From Bacillota bacterium (lineage in GTDB: Bacteria; Bacillota_I; Bacilli_A; RF39; UBA660), in assembly GCA_021771185.1 (NCBI GenBank), contig JAETPN010000003.1:1-64000 (forward strand): a stretch of DNA of 64,000 bases, in the 5' to 3' direction. Made by a program: the position numbers and the translations under genes. Of the stretch, positions 34,987 to 39,851 are shown one piece after another. Numbering within the stretch: position 1 is the first letter of the stretch; each line of letters opens with the position of its first letter. Below the pieces are notes generated by a model. The model ran no database searches. It saw only the letters and a program-made list of their open reading frames with translations, and was not told the DNA's origin.

Positions 34987-35520
34987 TTATTCACTTGCTT
35001 CAATCATTCCATAGTTGCCATCTTTTCGTTTGTAAACAACTGAAACATTTCCATCATCAACGTTTTTAAACACAAAGAAATCATGACCAACTAATTCCAT
35101 TTGAAGAATAGCCTCTTCTTCACTCATTGGTTTTACATCAACTGTTTTACGTCTTACAATAATTTCTTCATTTTCTTCTTCTTTATCAATATCAAAGTCC
35201 ATAATAAATTCATAGCGTTCATTATGAGCCTTGTGTTTCATTTTCGTCTTATTCTTGCGAATTTGTCTTTCTAACTTCTCTACAACACCATCAATTGCTG
35301 TATATAGATCTTTGTCACGAGCTTCTGCACGTAAAGTGACCTTAGGTGCTGGAATTGTTACTTCAACAACTTGTGCAACACCACTCACACGAATTAAAAC
35401 ATTCGCATTCATTTCATCTGGATTTTCAAAGTATTTATCTAACCTCCTAATTCTTTTTTCAATGTATGCCCTAATAGCATCTGTAACCTCTAATTTGTTA
35501 CCACGGATATTAAATACCAT
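34987..35520 (-). CDS. hpf: Long-form ribosome hibernation promoting factor
   Basis: A 177-aa long HPF. The N-terminal S30AE domain (LEVTDAIRAYIEKRIRRLDKYF, VEVTIPAPKVTLRAEARDKDLYTAID) is joined by an acidic linker to the dimerising C-terminal domain (VKPMSEEEAILQMELVGHDFFVFKN, VVYKRKDGNYGMIE). It pairs 70S ribosomes into inactive 100S dimers in stationary phase. It lies directly upstream of secA with its own terminator. Confidence 0.95.
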   Translation of the reverse strand: MVFNIRGNKLEVTDAIRAYIEKRIRRLDKYFENPDEMNANVLIRVSGVAQVVEVTIPAPKVTLRAEARDKDLYTAIDGVVEKLERQIRKNKTKMKHKAHNERYEFIMDFDIDKEEENEEIIVRRKTVDVKPMSEEEAILQMELVGHDFFVFKNVDDGNVSVVYKRKDGNYGMIEASE

Positions 35521-35598
35521 ATCATCAATCCTTTCTACTTTTATTATAGCACAAATTCTATTAAAAAAATATGATTAAATGATGAAATTATATGACAA

Positions 35599-35636
35599 AA
35601 AAAGAAAAGAAAAACTGCTTATACTAAAGCAGTTTT
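35599..35636 (-). terminator. Terminator after the cold-shock gene
   Basis: A perfect 8-bp stem AAAACTGC/GCAGTTTT spans the last codons, with TTCTTTTCTTTTTTT following on the minus strand. Confidence 0.85.
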
Positions 35637-35831
35637 AACTTCTACAACATTTTTGGCTTGAAGACCTTTATCCGTTCTTACTAACTCAAACTCTACTTCT
35701 TGACCTTCGACTAATGTCTTATATCCCTCAGTTAAAATCGCAGAATAGTGAACAAAAATATCCTCACCGTCTTTGTATTCAATAAATCCAAATCCTTTTT
35801 CATTATTGAACCATTTGACTTTTCCTCGCAT
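35619..35831 (-). CDS. Cold-shock protein (CspA family)
   Basis: A 70-aa single cold-shock domain. RNP1 is [11 protein letters not shown]2 is DIFVHYSAI, and the start [16 protein letters not shown] is canonical. It binds single-stranded RNA/DNA and melts mRNA structure, with expression often rising in the cold. Ribosome site AAGGGAG; a promoter is visible just upstream. Confidence 0.96.
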
Positions 35832-35863
35832 GGTTACATCTCCCTTCTACTCCTTACAACTAT

Positions 35864-35893
35864 ATTGTACCTCGTTAGGACTATGTAATTCAA
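35864..35893 (-). promoter_or_regulatory. Promoter of the cold-shock gene
   Basis: Minus-strand -35 TTGAAT (35888-35893), an 18-bp spacer and -10 TACAAT (35864-35869), giving a short leader of about 25 nt. No long cold-shock leader RNA is apparent if this start is used. Confidence 0.5.
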
Positions 35894-36091
35894 TAAAATA
35901 AAGTCGTCAAAATTCGACAGATTTTGCTATAACTCTATAAATACACATCATCCACATACTACACCGCCTAACGTCGGTAATTTACATTTTACCTTATAAT
36001 TAGCTTAAAATAGTATAAAACCGTTTCAAAGTAACTTTTCATAATTTAAAAATAAAATTTAATTTCAATATTTTAATATTTTAATTCTTAT

Positions 36092-36121
36092 AGACACATT
36101 TTGAACTTTTTAAGACATTTT
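36092..36121 (+). promoter_or_regulatory. Candidate AgrA (LytTR) direct repeats upstream of agrB
   Basis: AGACACATT (36092-36100) and AGACATTTT (36113-36121) are direct repeats with a 21-bp period, the geometry of AgrA sites in staphylococci. A possible -10, TAAAAT (36147-36152), follows with a poor -35, as expected of an activated promoter. The rest of 35894-36179 shows only AT-rich sequence. Confidence 0.4.
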
Positions 36122-36179
36122 TAATAACGTGTAATTCAAAATCATTTAAAATGTGATCAGTTAGAAAGTAGTTGGTTCT

Positions 36180-36788
36180 ATGAAACAATATGTAGTAAAT
36201 CATTGTTATAACTTTGTTATATCAAATAACCCAAATGTTGATCGTCTTACACAAGACAAATTAAAATACGGATTAGAATCAATCTATATACTAGTAACCA
36301 AAATTATTTTTGTATTTATTGTGGCAGGATTACTCAATGTTTTCACAGAGGTCGTAATCTTCCTATGTTTATATAATTTAATTAGAATGCCATCCTTTGG
36401 ACTTCATGCAACAAAAAGCTGGATATGTTTAGTATCATCCACTTTAATCTTCATTCTAATTCCACTCTTCTGTAAAAATTATATCCTCCCAATAAATATA
36501 AAAACTATTTTAGGAGTTATTACCACACTTCTAATTTATAAAAATGCTCCTGCAGACACTTATAAAAGACCTATCATAAATAAAAAAAGGAGACAAACAT
36601 ATAAATATATATCTACAAGTGTAGCAATCTTATTATCTATTGCTTCTATTATGATTACAGATACATTCTTAAGTAATTCATGTATTCTAGCACTTGTTGT
36701 ACAATGTTTTATGATTTCTCCATTAACATACAAAACATTTAATTTACCATATAATAATTATTTAAAATATCAAACAAAAGAAATTTAA
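36180..36788 (+). CDS. agrB: AgrB-type membrane peptidase for autoinducer maturation
   Basis: A 202-aa polytopic membrane protein of AgrB size. The catalytic pair is in place: His76 and Cys83 in FGLHATKSWICLVSS, exactly seven apart as in staphylococcal AgrB. The conserved KNAPADTYKRPIINKKRR loop follows, with about five or six helices in all. AgrB cuts the AgrD precursor and closes the thiolactone ring. Its ribosome site is weak (AGAAAG), in contrast to that of agrD, so less AgrB than AgrD is expected. It is one of few plus-strand genes here. Confidence 0.93.
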   Translation: MKQYVVNHCYNFVISNNPNVDRLTQDKLKYGLESIYILVTKIIFVFIVAGLLNVFTEVVIFLCLYNLIRMPSFGLHATKSWICLVSSTLIFILIPLFCKNYILPINIKTILGVITTLLIYKNAPADTYKRPIINKKRRQTYKYISTSVAILLSIASIMITDTFLSNSCILALVVQCFMISPLTYKTFNLPYNNYLKYQTKEI

Positions 36789-36803
36789 ATCTGCGCAGAT
36801 TTA
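36786..36803 (+). other. 18-bp perfect palindrome between agrB and agrD
   Basis: TAAATCTGCGCAGATTTA begins at the agrB stop codon. It would form a compact RNA hairpin separating the two coding regions. It has no T tail, so it is more likely a processing or stability element, or an operator, than a terminator. Confidence 0.6.
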
Positions 36804-36828
36804 GATAAAATACGTAAGGAGGTAAAGT

Positions 36829-36951
36829 ATGAAAAACTTATTAGCATCTGCTCTTTCATTCTTTGGTGTATGTATGGCAGATATGGGATCTAGTGCTTGT
36901 GTTGCTGTTATTCTTGATGAACCAGAAATGCCAGAAAGTTTAATTAAATAA
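36829..36951 (+). CDS. agrD: AgrD, cyclic autoinducer peptide precursor
   Basis: A 40-codon gene with a strong ribosome site (AAGGAGGT, 36816-36823). The product has the AgrD plan: an amphipathic N-terminal helix (MKNLLASALSFFGVCMADMG), a core SSACVAVIL with ring cysteine Cys24, and an acidic, proline-containing tail DEPEMPESLIK. The tail matches the DEPEVP-type tail of staphylococcal AgrD. In known systems five residues from Cys form the ring. Here the distance from Cys24 to the DEPE motif is one residue longer, so the ring may be CVAVI or a six-residue CVAVIL. A second cysteine (Cys15) lies in the leader. Confidence 0.9.
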   Translation: MKNLLASALSFFGVCMADMGSSACVAVILDEPEMPESLIK

Positions 36952-36959
36952 TTAATTAA

Positions 36960-36988
36960 AAAAAATGTAGACTAAAATCTACATTTTT
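36960..36988. terminator. Bidirectional terminator between agrD and agrC
   Basis: The stem AAAAATGTAGA/TCTACATTTTT with loop CTAAAA serves both convergent transcripts; the agrC stop codon lies inside the right arm. Confidence 0.88.
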
Positions 36989-38301
36989 ATTTTTATCACT
37001 TGTGTCATAATATCCATATAAATTGATGTTTCACTAGTTATTTCCTTATTTTGCATTAATATTTCCTTCACTAACGCTAATCCATATCCATGATTGTCTC
37101 CCTTAGAACTATATCCCATAGTTCCAAGTTTATCTACATCTAATTCTCCTTGAAAATTATTGGCAACTAAAATACAAAAGTTTCCTTCTTCAATATAAAT
37201 CTCAACATCCATTTCTTTAGTTTCTAGATCTTTAACTGCCTGTATAGCATTATCTAAATACACACCAACGATTTTTCCATATTGGCGTACTAATTCAGAA
37301 CTCATTTTAGAAAAATTCTTACTATTTATATTTCTACCTACTCGAAGATCATAAGAAATTCCTAAATTATCACACGAAACTAATTTATGATAAATTAACC
37401 CACGTAAACCACCAGAAGGGATTGGTAAGGTTTTTTGATATAAATTATCATTTCCACGTAAATCTCTTTCAATTTTCTCATAATCCTGAATCATAGCGTG
37501 AAGTTGTTCCTTAGCCTTTTTATTTCGTGGACTTATTAACCCATCTAATACTATCAAATCATTTTTGTTTTCATGAGTATCTCTTCGACTTTTGTCTATG
37601 ATCGTTTCATATTCTACAGACTTGTCTAAAAGATTATCATATTCTGCTTTTATGTTTACATTTTCATTTTGTTCTGCAAATATCTTAAATGATATAATCG
37701 TATAAACAATTATTGAAAAACAATTTAATGCTACCATATATGCTATATTAATTTTATAATAACATGTATACATAATTAAATTCGTTACAGCTATTAAAAT
37801 TATTAATATAATAAGACTTTGTATCGGCTTATGACTATTCATTTTACTTAATAATTTCTTTTTTAAAAAGTCTATTACATACTTATTTAACACTAACACC
37901 ATTATCACAGACATTATAATATTAATAATAAACGTCCCTTCAAAGGTACTTAAAATAACTGTAATATTATTTGATGGAATTAACAATAGCATAAATAACA
38001 AAACAAATTCACTAATAATTAAAGCAAAATGAGTTATAAATGTAATAATGATAGAAGAATACAAACTTCTTCTAAATAAGAAATAATTTGTAATAGTATA
38101 TACAATATATGCAAACAATATTTTGATATACGTAGATACATATAAATAATTAATCGAAATAACAAAAACGGATAATAATATAATTAGAATATTTTTAATT
38201 GTTAAAATTTTCACCCGCTCTTCATTAAAAATTTGCCATAAATATAATTGAGATAATAAAATTATAGCTGAACCAAAGAAAACACTCATAAATTCTGACA
38301 T
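36979..38301 (-). CDS. agrC: AgrC-type sensor histidine kinase
   Basis: A 440-aa kinase. Residues 1 to about 205 hold six or so membrane helices, the peptide-sensing module. Then come a dimerisation segment with phospho-His in RRDTHENKNDLIVLDGL, and a GHKL-type ATPase with VGVYLDNAIQAVKDLE (N box) and SSKGDNHGYGLALVKEIL (G box). This is the HPK10 architecture of peptide sensors. Its start coincides with the agrA stop (shared base 38301), so the two are coupled, in the order agrA then agrC. Confidence 0.9.
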   Translation of the reverse strand: MSEFMSVFFGSAIILLSQLYLWQIFNEERVKILTIKNILIILLSVFVISINYLYVSTYIKILFAYIVYTITNYFLFRRSLYSSIIITFITHFALIISEFVLLFMLLLIPSNNITVILSTFEGTFIINIIMSVIMVLVLNKYVIDFLKKKLLSKMNSHKPIQSLIILIILIAVTNLIMYTCYYKINIAYMVALNCFSIIVYTIISFKIFAEQNENVNIKAEYDNLLDKSVEYETIIDKSRRDTHENKNDLIVLDGLISPRNKKAKEQLHAMIQDYEKIERDLRGNDNLYQKTLPIPSGGLRGLIYHKLVSCDNLGISYDLRVGRNINSKNFSKMSSELVRQYGKIVGVYLDNAIQAVKDLETKEMDVEIYIEEGNFCILVANNFQGELDVDKLGTMGYSSKGDNHGYGLALVKEILMQNKEITSETSIYMDIMTQVIKIKM

Positions 38302-39005
38302 TACTCAGCAACTCCTTTCAAATACTTACTTGATAATAGATCACATACTTCACCATTATCAAATGTAATTTTTTTACGTCTTTTATCAATAGAAATAATT
38401 CTTTGTTTATTTACAATACATGATCGATAGGAATAAACAAAGTCCGGGCCTAATAAACTTGCCATTTCTACTAATGGCTTAGATAACTTAAACTCTGAAA
38501 AGTCAGTTTTAATAACTATTTTTCGTTCCACACCATCACGTGTAATATATAAAATATCCTTTTCTGGTAAGGTAAATACAGTCCCATGATGTTCAAAACG
38601 AAGAATTTTGTTTTTTCCCATAACCTTTACAGCTTTATTAATTGATGACGTTAGACGTTTTGGATAATCATCTAATTTATTAATGAAAGTTAAAAACATA
38701 ATTTCATCATGTAATAAAACTGAACCTAATTCATCATGGGATGTTAAAAATATAATCACACTATTAACATCTTTTACTCTAATCTTTCTCGCGATATCGA
38801 TTCCTGATGCACGTTTTGTTTCAATATCTAAAATATATATTTTATTAGACATACGCGCATTCATAATTTTGTAAAAACTATTGTCATATTCTGAAAATGA
38901 ATAAATCTCGTAGGCATAATCATTTTTCATCATTGTCATACTAATAATTTTCTTCACATTGTTTAAAATCTCTGCATTATCATCACAAAGAATAAAATTA
39001 ATCAC
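38301..39005 (-). CDS. agrA: AgrA-type LytTR response regulator
   Basis: A 234-aa response regulator. The receiver domain (1 to about 125) has acidic pocket FILCDDNAEIL, phospho-acceptor region IYILDIETKRASGIDIA and VIIFLTSHDE. The LytTR DNA-binding domain (about 135-234) has ILYITRDGVERKIVI and YSYRSCIVNKQRIISIDKRRKKITFDNG. The GTG at 39005 is preferred because AAAGGA is then correctly spaced; another GTG lies two codons upstream. It should activate agrBD once phosphorylated by AgrC. Confidence 0.92.
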   Translation of the reverse strand: MINFILCDDNAEILNNVKKIISMTMMKNDYAYEIYSFSEYDNSFYKIMNARMSNKIYILDIETKRASGIDIARKIRVKDVNSVIIFLTSHDELGSVLLHDEIMFLTFINKLDDYPKRLTSSINKAVKVMGKNKILRFEHHGTVFTLPEKDILYITRDGVERKIVIKTDFSEFKLSKPLVEMASLLGPDFVYSYRSCIVNKQRIISIDKRRKKITFDNGEVCDLLSSKYLKGVAE

Positions 39006-39047
39006 TTTCACACTTCCTTTACTACGAATTACTCTTTAGTTAATTAA

Positions 39048-39076
39048 ATGTTATCACGCTAAAACAAGAAAATCAA
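39048..39076 (-). promoter_or_regulatory. Promoter of agrA-agrC
   Basis: Minus-strand -35 TTGATT (39071-39076), a 17-bp spacer and -10 TAACAT (39048-39053), about 40 bp upstream of the start codon. It is separate from agrBD, so the sensor pair and signal genes form two transcripts. Confidence 0.5.
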
Positions 39077-39131
39077 TATATTTGTTTCCAAATTTTAACA
39101 TTTTTTAACTAATAGCATATTATAACCCGTT

Positions 39132-39156
39132 AAAAAACGACTCATTAAAGTCGTTT
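39132..39156 (-). terminator. Terminator after the DUF2752 gene
   Basis: The stem AAACGACT/AGTCGTTT with loop TTAATG-type centre and T tail on the minus strand overlaps the stop codon. Confidence 0.85.
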
Positions 39157-39522
39157 ACCATTTAATATTAAGTTAAACAACCAAACAACAAAGAAAAGAA
39201 CAAAAATAAAACCGGCATATTTTTGAACAAGTTGATCTATTCTATTTATATACGTTGCTTGATTTTTTGCAATATCTAATGCAAGAAATGGAATAGAGAT
39301 CAAACACATTATAATCAATGGAAAAGCCATCAAATTATAACGAAATGACGCTAAAAAATTTCCATGAAATATTGCCAAAACTGCTCTTGTCATACCACAT
39401 CCCATACAAGGAATATGTAACAGTTTTTTAAATGGACATTGATAATTAAAATCCAATACATATAAGATAACGAATAAACAAACTGGGAATAAGAACCACA
39501 ATATATTTTTAAGTCGATTCAT
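39145..39522 (-). CDS. DUF2752 family membrane protein
   Basis: A 125-aa protein with three membrane helices. It has the family signature CPFKKLLHIPCMGCGMTRAVLA, containing the CxxCG cysteine pair, followed by HGNFLASFRYNLMAFP. The function of this family is unknown. Its start touches the stop of the TM2-domain gene (shared base 39522), so the pair is coupled. Confidence 0.88.
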   Translation of the reverse strand: MNRLKNILWFLFPVCLFVILYVLDFNYQCPFKKLLHIPCMGCGMTRAVLAIFHGNFLASFRYNLMAFPLIIMCLISIPFLALDIAKNQATYINRIDQLVQKYAGFIFVLFFVVWLFNLILNGKRL

Positions 39523-39851
39523 TATATTAATGGATTTCCAGCTGCATCTTCTTTAATAGCATCTGTAAGAATTAAAATTCCTTCGATTAATCCCCAAATT
39601 CCACTTATAAAACTAAGTAATCCACAGGTTAGTACAGTTAGTAATAATTGTGCTGTAGCTTTTCCTGTATATCCTAAATAAAAATTGTGAATACCTAAGG
39701 CACCTAAAAATATTCCTAATAGTCCAGCGGCTATTTTTGATTTTTCACCAGACACTGCAGAATTTGAATTCTTGTTATTAAGGACTTTTCCACAATTTAG
39801 ACAAACATCTTGATCCTTTTCAATTTCTTTTCCACAATATTTACAATACAT
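39522..39851 (-). CDS. Zinc-ribbon and TM2-domain membrane protein
   Basis: A 109-aa protein: an N-terminal zinc ribbon (MYCKYCGKEIEKDQDVCLNCGK, two CxxC pairs), a linker and a TM2 domain with two helices (SKIAAGLLGIFLGALGIHNFYLGYTG and GLLSFISGIWGLIEGILILT). TM2-DUF2752 pairs are common in Firmicutes; their role is unknown. Confidence 0.9.
   Translation of the reverse strand: MYCKYCGKEIEKDQDVCLNCGKVLNNKNSNSAVSGEKSKIAAGLLGIFLGALGIHNFYLGYTGKATAQLLLTVLTCGLLSFISGIWGLIEGILILTDAIKEDAAGNPLI

Follow-up and report, generated by a model that had tools for sequence, protein, structure and literature searches.

Does the group of agr-like genes carried by a 64,000-nucleotide stretch of DNA (the window) form a working peptide signalling loop, and if it does, what does the loop control? 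The stretch comes from a MAG of 1.24 Mb, to which Candidatus Pelethosoma is the closest of the named relatives. Candidatus Faecisoma and Candidatus Coprosoma, assigned by their describers to GTDB order RF39, family CAG-822 (PMC8035907), are family members that lie farther from it, and we place the MAG in or near that order and family, among uncultured, small-genome gut Bacilli. An earlier note on this DNA had described a complete agr-type locus at 36092–39076 and had taken its loop and autoinducer to be probably undescribed for the lineage. All four genes, agrB, agrD, agrC and agrA, were found at the places given and each matches its family; the outer bounds had to be moved, to 36088 at the start, where the promoter repeats begin, and to 39011 at the end, where agrA starts. 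A search of the open-access literature likewise returned no agr paper on this lineage, and no report of the convergent form of agr or of agr in RF39. As set out below, the locus is probably a functional agr-type thiolactone autoinduction loop with csp, the gene of a cold-shock protein, as its output, kept by vertical descent in a family near RF39/CAG-822.

AgrB and the predicted signal peptide

The first gene of the locus, agrB (36180–36788, plus strand), encodes a membrane Cys peptidase of 202 aa that matches PF04647 with 111 bits (cut-off 23, E=5.8e-32). The residues H76 and C83, whose spacing of seven had already been pointed out, are invariant in an alignment of family AgrBs (100/100). It is followed by agrD (36829–36951, plus strand), preceded by the ribosome site AAGGAGG (36816–36822, plus strand), which encodes 40 aa ending in the C-terminal tail DEPEMPESLIK. 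The product scored 28.9 bits against the NCBIfam model TIGR04223 (cut-off 19, E=8.9e-7), which upholds its identification as an AgrD with this tail, and stayed under the cut-off of the staphylococcal-only PF05931 (17.2 vs 22.7 bits). The note had also held that such an AgrD is too short for many gene callers; since its score lies above the NCBIfam cut-off, current annotation pipelines that use this model should detect it.

The position of the tail is nearly fixed. Counted from the Cys, which is included, six residues precede the [DE]E tail in 89 of 93 distinct AgrDs (spacing C-x5-DE), seven in the other 4, and five in none of the 93. From this fixed spacing a thiolactone ring of six residues is predicted, CVAVIL in the window, within a predicted AIP core (S)SACVAVIL; this ring size assumes that AgrB cuts before the DE tail, as the staphylococcal type does. 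The earlier note had named SSACVAVIL as the source of the thiolactone peptide and had missed the likely six-residue ring. Across the family the hydrophobic ring varies between the near-invariant flanks [GS]S-x-A-C and DEPxxP-x-S-L-I-K, in which A at −7, G-S at −4/−3, D-E, P and S-L-I-K hardly change, and the window's genus has five different rings and one tail in five species. This combination of a variable putative ring with constant flanks matches the look of a diversifying signal. One locus, represented by both L013 and L057, has two agrD genes downstream of one agrB, with the rings CIVLWI and CMLLWL.

A few family genomes hold a protein of 410–424 aa (L216:1981–3219, L217:2168–3424, L218:2499–3773 and L219:1713–2948; split ORFs in L220 and L221) that consists of an N-terminal membrane part, an AgrB-like domain (PF04647, 27–35 bits) and a C-terminal HTH-like part. 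The His-Cys spacing is kept, with FGKxFHMKxAxxC in 3/4. In L218 the gene has agrC on one side and agrA on the other, and in other genomes it is located upstream of csp. Structure prediction for this AgrB-HTH fusion was of low confidence except for the C-terminal helical part. It is possibly an AgrB-derived membrane regulator.

Sensor, regulator and convergent layout

The opposite strand encodes the sensor and the regulator. The product of agrC (36979–38301, minus strand, 440 aa) combines a sensor of six transmembrane segments, seen as six hydrophobic stretches within residues 4–204 of the hydropathy profile, with an HPK10-type kinase that matches HATPase_c_5 (39.2 bits, cut-off 22). H243, N351, G405 and G407 are invariant among 84 family AgrCs, and the sensor half is more divergent than the kinase half (mean identity 21% vs 39%). 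The agrA gene (38301–39011, minus strand, GTG start at 39011) encodes 236 aa with a receiver domain (D62) and a LytTR domain; the latter (PF04397) scored 37.9 bits (cut-off 22.6), and Response_reg fell slightly below its cut-off (27.0 vs 30.2). D62 and K112 are invariant among 56 family AgrAs. Together, the two domain matches and the invariant H243 and D62 confirm the proposed pairing of an HPK10-type AgrC with a LytTR AgrA. The agrA stop and the agrC start overlap by one base (TAATG). Two agrC copies lie next to one agrA in L038, L053, L058, L092 and L104; those of L038 score identically and may have arisen by duplication in the assembly. In the window, the genes of a DUF2752 protein and of a TM2/zinc-ribbon membrane protein (39145–39851) closely precede agrA on its own strand, a position kept in at least two relatives of the same genus (L032 and L034).

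The split, convergent arrangement of agrBD on the plus strand and agrA-agrC on the minus strand, which had been presented as a feature of this locus, was found as described and proved to be the rule of the family. AgrC lies on the strand opposite AgrB in 85/85 distinct family loci in which it is visible, which makes the arrangement a fixed family trait, and AgrA does so in 50/50; other families of the same class have the usual co-directional order B-D-C, or D-B. The two units share a terminator, also proposed earlier: a hairpin at 36961–36988, between agrD and agrC, acts on both strands as judged by T-tracts on either side (−10.0 and −10.8 kcal/mol, z −4.8 and −3.8), and one of its arms overlaps the end of agrC. 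The stop-to-stop gap between agrD and agrC is usually 9–130 bp (83 family loci).

Two opposed repeat pairs between csp and agrB

The account given in the earlier note, sound for the agr genes, had passed over both the neighbour csp and the paired AgrA-type sites that separate it from agrB. Family-wide, the csp-agrB intergenic region contains two LytTR-type pairs of direct repeats facing in opposite directions, each with a spacing of 21 bp. In the window, the pair facing agrB (36088–36117, plus strand) reads TTATAGACA-N12-TTTAAGACA and scored 12.8 bits as a predicted AgrA site, with a −10-like TAAAAT (36147–36152, plus strand) at an offset of 59. The LytTR-type pair facing csp (36022–36051, minus strand; TTTTAAATT-N12-TTTGAAACG, 21-bp spacing) is weak, with 8.0 bits on a scale where shuffled sequences have a median of about 5 bits and a 95% level of 10 bits, and stands out solely through its register with a −10-like TAAAAT of the distal csp promoter (35986–35991, minus strand) at an offset of 60.

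The repeats were recovered without any motif model. Autocorrelation of the csp-facing part singled out a spacing of 21 (z 15.4), which was also the top spacing of the agrB-facing part (z 5.2); these z-scores are inflated by the relatedness of the family loci, and the fairer control, other spacings in the same sequences, gave no comparable signal in the csp-facing part. A control stretch gave no direct repeats at spacing 21 by the same measure. PWMs trained separately on each strand converged on the half-site TTT[CT]A[AG][AG]CA in opposite orientations. The −10-like hexamer played no part in this training. Measured from where the pair begins, its offset was 59–60 in about 78% of the pairs that face csp and in 48% of those that face agrB, compared with a background of about 2–2.5%. 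Among the csp-facing pairs of the family (n=74) the offset was 59 in 46% and 60 in 32%. This puts the centre of the pair at about −57 from the expected transcription start. The agrB promoter thus carries putative autoregulatory direct repeats of the AgrA type.

From these elements we propose the following circuit. AgrB would cut AgrD before the DE tail and close the six-residue Cys-thiolactone CVAVIL, bearing a short N-terminal tail of the SSA type; the cyclic peptide would leave the cell and be sensed by AgrC, which would phosphorylate AgrA. AgrA would bind the 21-bp-spaced direct repeats between csp and agrB and activate two divergent promoters without a good −35, that of agrBD, giving autoinduction, and that of csp. 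The csp promoter, the better conserved one family-wide, would provide a cold-shock RNA chaperone as the conserved output in the position of RNAIII; a physiological role of csp and an effect of raised Csp are presumed in this scheme.

A locus of this make-up could also serve something other than population sensing, if the peptide acted on other species or if AgrC sensed the peptide of a neighbour or some other cue. Several relatives have a second AgrC or a second AgrD gene there, which would suit eavesdropping or several signals, and the ring is very hydrophobic. We regard this as improbable, because a locus with a single copy each of D, C and A, together with autoregulatory sites, has the standard self-sensing design, and because the sensor domain and the ring vary while the kinase and the tail are kept. 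Still far less probable is that the locus is a remnant which, in a genome that has been reduced, is decaying or no longer expressed. The MAG is small, and AgrB was seen in 96/140 good family genomes (about 69%) and not in about 31%, but reading frames are intact, the catalytic residues are invariant, and ribosome sites, terminator and promoter geometry are all kept.

csp as the candidate output

The csp gene (35619–35831, minus strand) encodes a cold-shock protein of 70 aa (PF00313, 97 bits), has a terminator hairpin of its own after it (35611–35636, −11.0 kcal/mol, z −4.3) and accounts for the only CSD-domain match in the window genome. In nearly all family loci whose flanks are long enough to show it, csp is the divergent neighbour of agrB, within a block of secA-hpf-csp on the left, then agrB-agrD and agrC-agrA. 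Several family genomes without a full agrB (L172/L222, L220, L223, L224 and L225) still have a gene for an AgrA-like LytTR protein beside csp, on the same strand in L220 and L223–L225 and divergent in L172/L222. From this gene order, csp looks like the constant partner of the AgrA-like LytTR regulator.

We then asked where composite sites, that is, a repeat pair with its −10, fall. Over 755 kb of family loci, the same loci on which the PWM was trained, 80 composite sites were found, as compared with 7 in the reversed control. Their targets were csp (53), agrB (15), agrA (7) and others (5), and 3 of the 5 others face a second csp copy. A strict composite pattern gave 18 sites in 145 whole genomes (5 in the control), 10 of them at csp and 3 at agrB. 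The 64-kb window had 4 composite hits, including the agrB-facing and csp-facing pairs, and its control 2. Composite sites at csp promoters occurred in 52/79 loci and in 0/8 agrB-less relatives, a count that excludes L172, an agrB-less contig with agrA next to csp, in which a strong repeat pair lacks a −10 at the proper distance.

Further targets were also sought. A scan with the exact consensus was too strict; allowing one mismatch gave 32 hits versus 10 in the control, the readable ones mainly at csp, the rest at agrA within a single clade or at scattered places. Regulation of agrA by AgrA was rejected as a general trait, being confined to the Faecisoma clade, with about 7 genomes, and absent from the window. 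The same holds for comK as a general target, with a site in 2/30 family genomes and none in the window genome; the gene itself is present in 109/117 family genomes. In those two, L256 (upstream of 1501) and L261, a strong composite AgrA-type site precedes comK, which encodes the master regulator of competence.

The main competing explanation accepts a working agr loop and lets both repeat pairs serve agrBD alone, csp being a syntenic bystander with a nearer promoter of its own. Most species, including most long-leader relatives, do have a conserved proximal sigma-A-like csp promoter besides the distal one, the csp-facing pair of the window is weak, and secA-hpf-csp is a conserved housekeeping block that also occurs without agr. 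Against this, the far pair is oriented towards csp, with a −10 of its own at an equal offset of 59–60; family-wide it is the stronger and better conserved of the two pairs; in a clade with a short intergenic region it lies immediately before csp; such sites face second csp copies as well; and the site is lost in agrB-less relatives. We therefore consider the bystander role unlikely, though less so than the two alternatives above, and retain a loop with csp output, in which AgrA, given the proximal promoter, would raise csp expression above a basal level and would not start it from nothing. The conservation of the promoter sites points to this neighbour as the main output of the locus.

A TGTCGAAxTTTG-type element immediately precedes the proximal csp promoter in the window (about 35920–35935) and in the csp leaders of many relatives, and similar TTCGACA strings occur upstream of some comK genes; it is possibly the site of another regulator. 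An RNA leader or thermosensor of csp was considered and dropped, as the only Rfam cspA match reached 20 bits (cut-off 78) and lay inside the csp gene.

For the family as a whole, we lean slightly towards the view that csp holds the slot of RNAIII, the quorum signal driving an RNA-binding protein as the conserved and nearly sole direct output besides the agr genes, and with the same site placed before comK as well in a few genera. Should csp indeed be the output, quorum control would act by way of an RNA-chaperone protein, a part that a regulatory RNA plays in Staphylococcus. For this large gut family, which is uncultured, the analysis predicts a signal (some 90 different peptides with six-residue rings), a receptor, a binding site and an output, and each of these predicted pieces can be synthesised and tested in a laboratory host.

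Comparison with known systems

With the agr system of S. aureus the locus shares the four protein families and an AgrD with a Cys ring and a DE-x-x-x-P tail. The AgrA repeats of S. aureus have their centres at about −60 relative to P2 and P3 (PMC4227749); here too there is one AgrA-type repeat pair for each divergent promoter, centred near −57. Unlike the co-directional agrBDCA operon, agrA-agrC lies here on the opposite strand and in reversed order, the predicted ring has six residues and not five, PF05931 is not matched above its cut-off, and csp occupies the divergent promoter where RNAIII sits; no Rfam match to RNAIII was found in window positions 35500–39200, even at E<=1. The locus is thus a member of the broad agr kind and differs from staphylococcal agr in the narrow sense in operon order, ring size and RNAIII.

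C. acetobutylicum also has agrBD and agrCA as separate operons (PMC10301443, PMC12312760) and a known six-residue ring (PMC12312760), and its agrBD/agrCA system with a LanM-like effector (PMC10301443) resembles the present one in its separate units and predicted six-residue ring (CVLVTL); here, in contrast, the units converge, the conserved neighbour is csp and no LanM-like gene was seen. Listeria agrBDCA and Lactiplantibacillus lamBDCA likewise bring the four parts together in Bacilli without RNAIII, but as co-directional operons with five-residue rings (PMC12312760). Finally, the promoter region resembles LytTR-regulated divergent promoters in having 21-bp-spaced direct repeats upstream of a promoter with a weak −35, while its half-site, TTT[CT]A[AG][AG]CA, is specific to this family.
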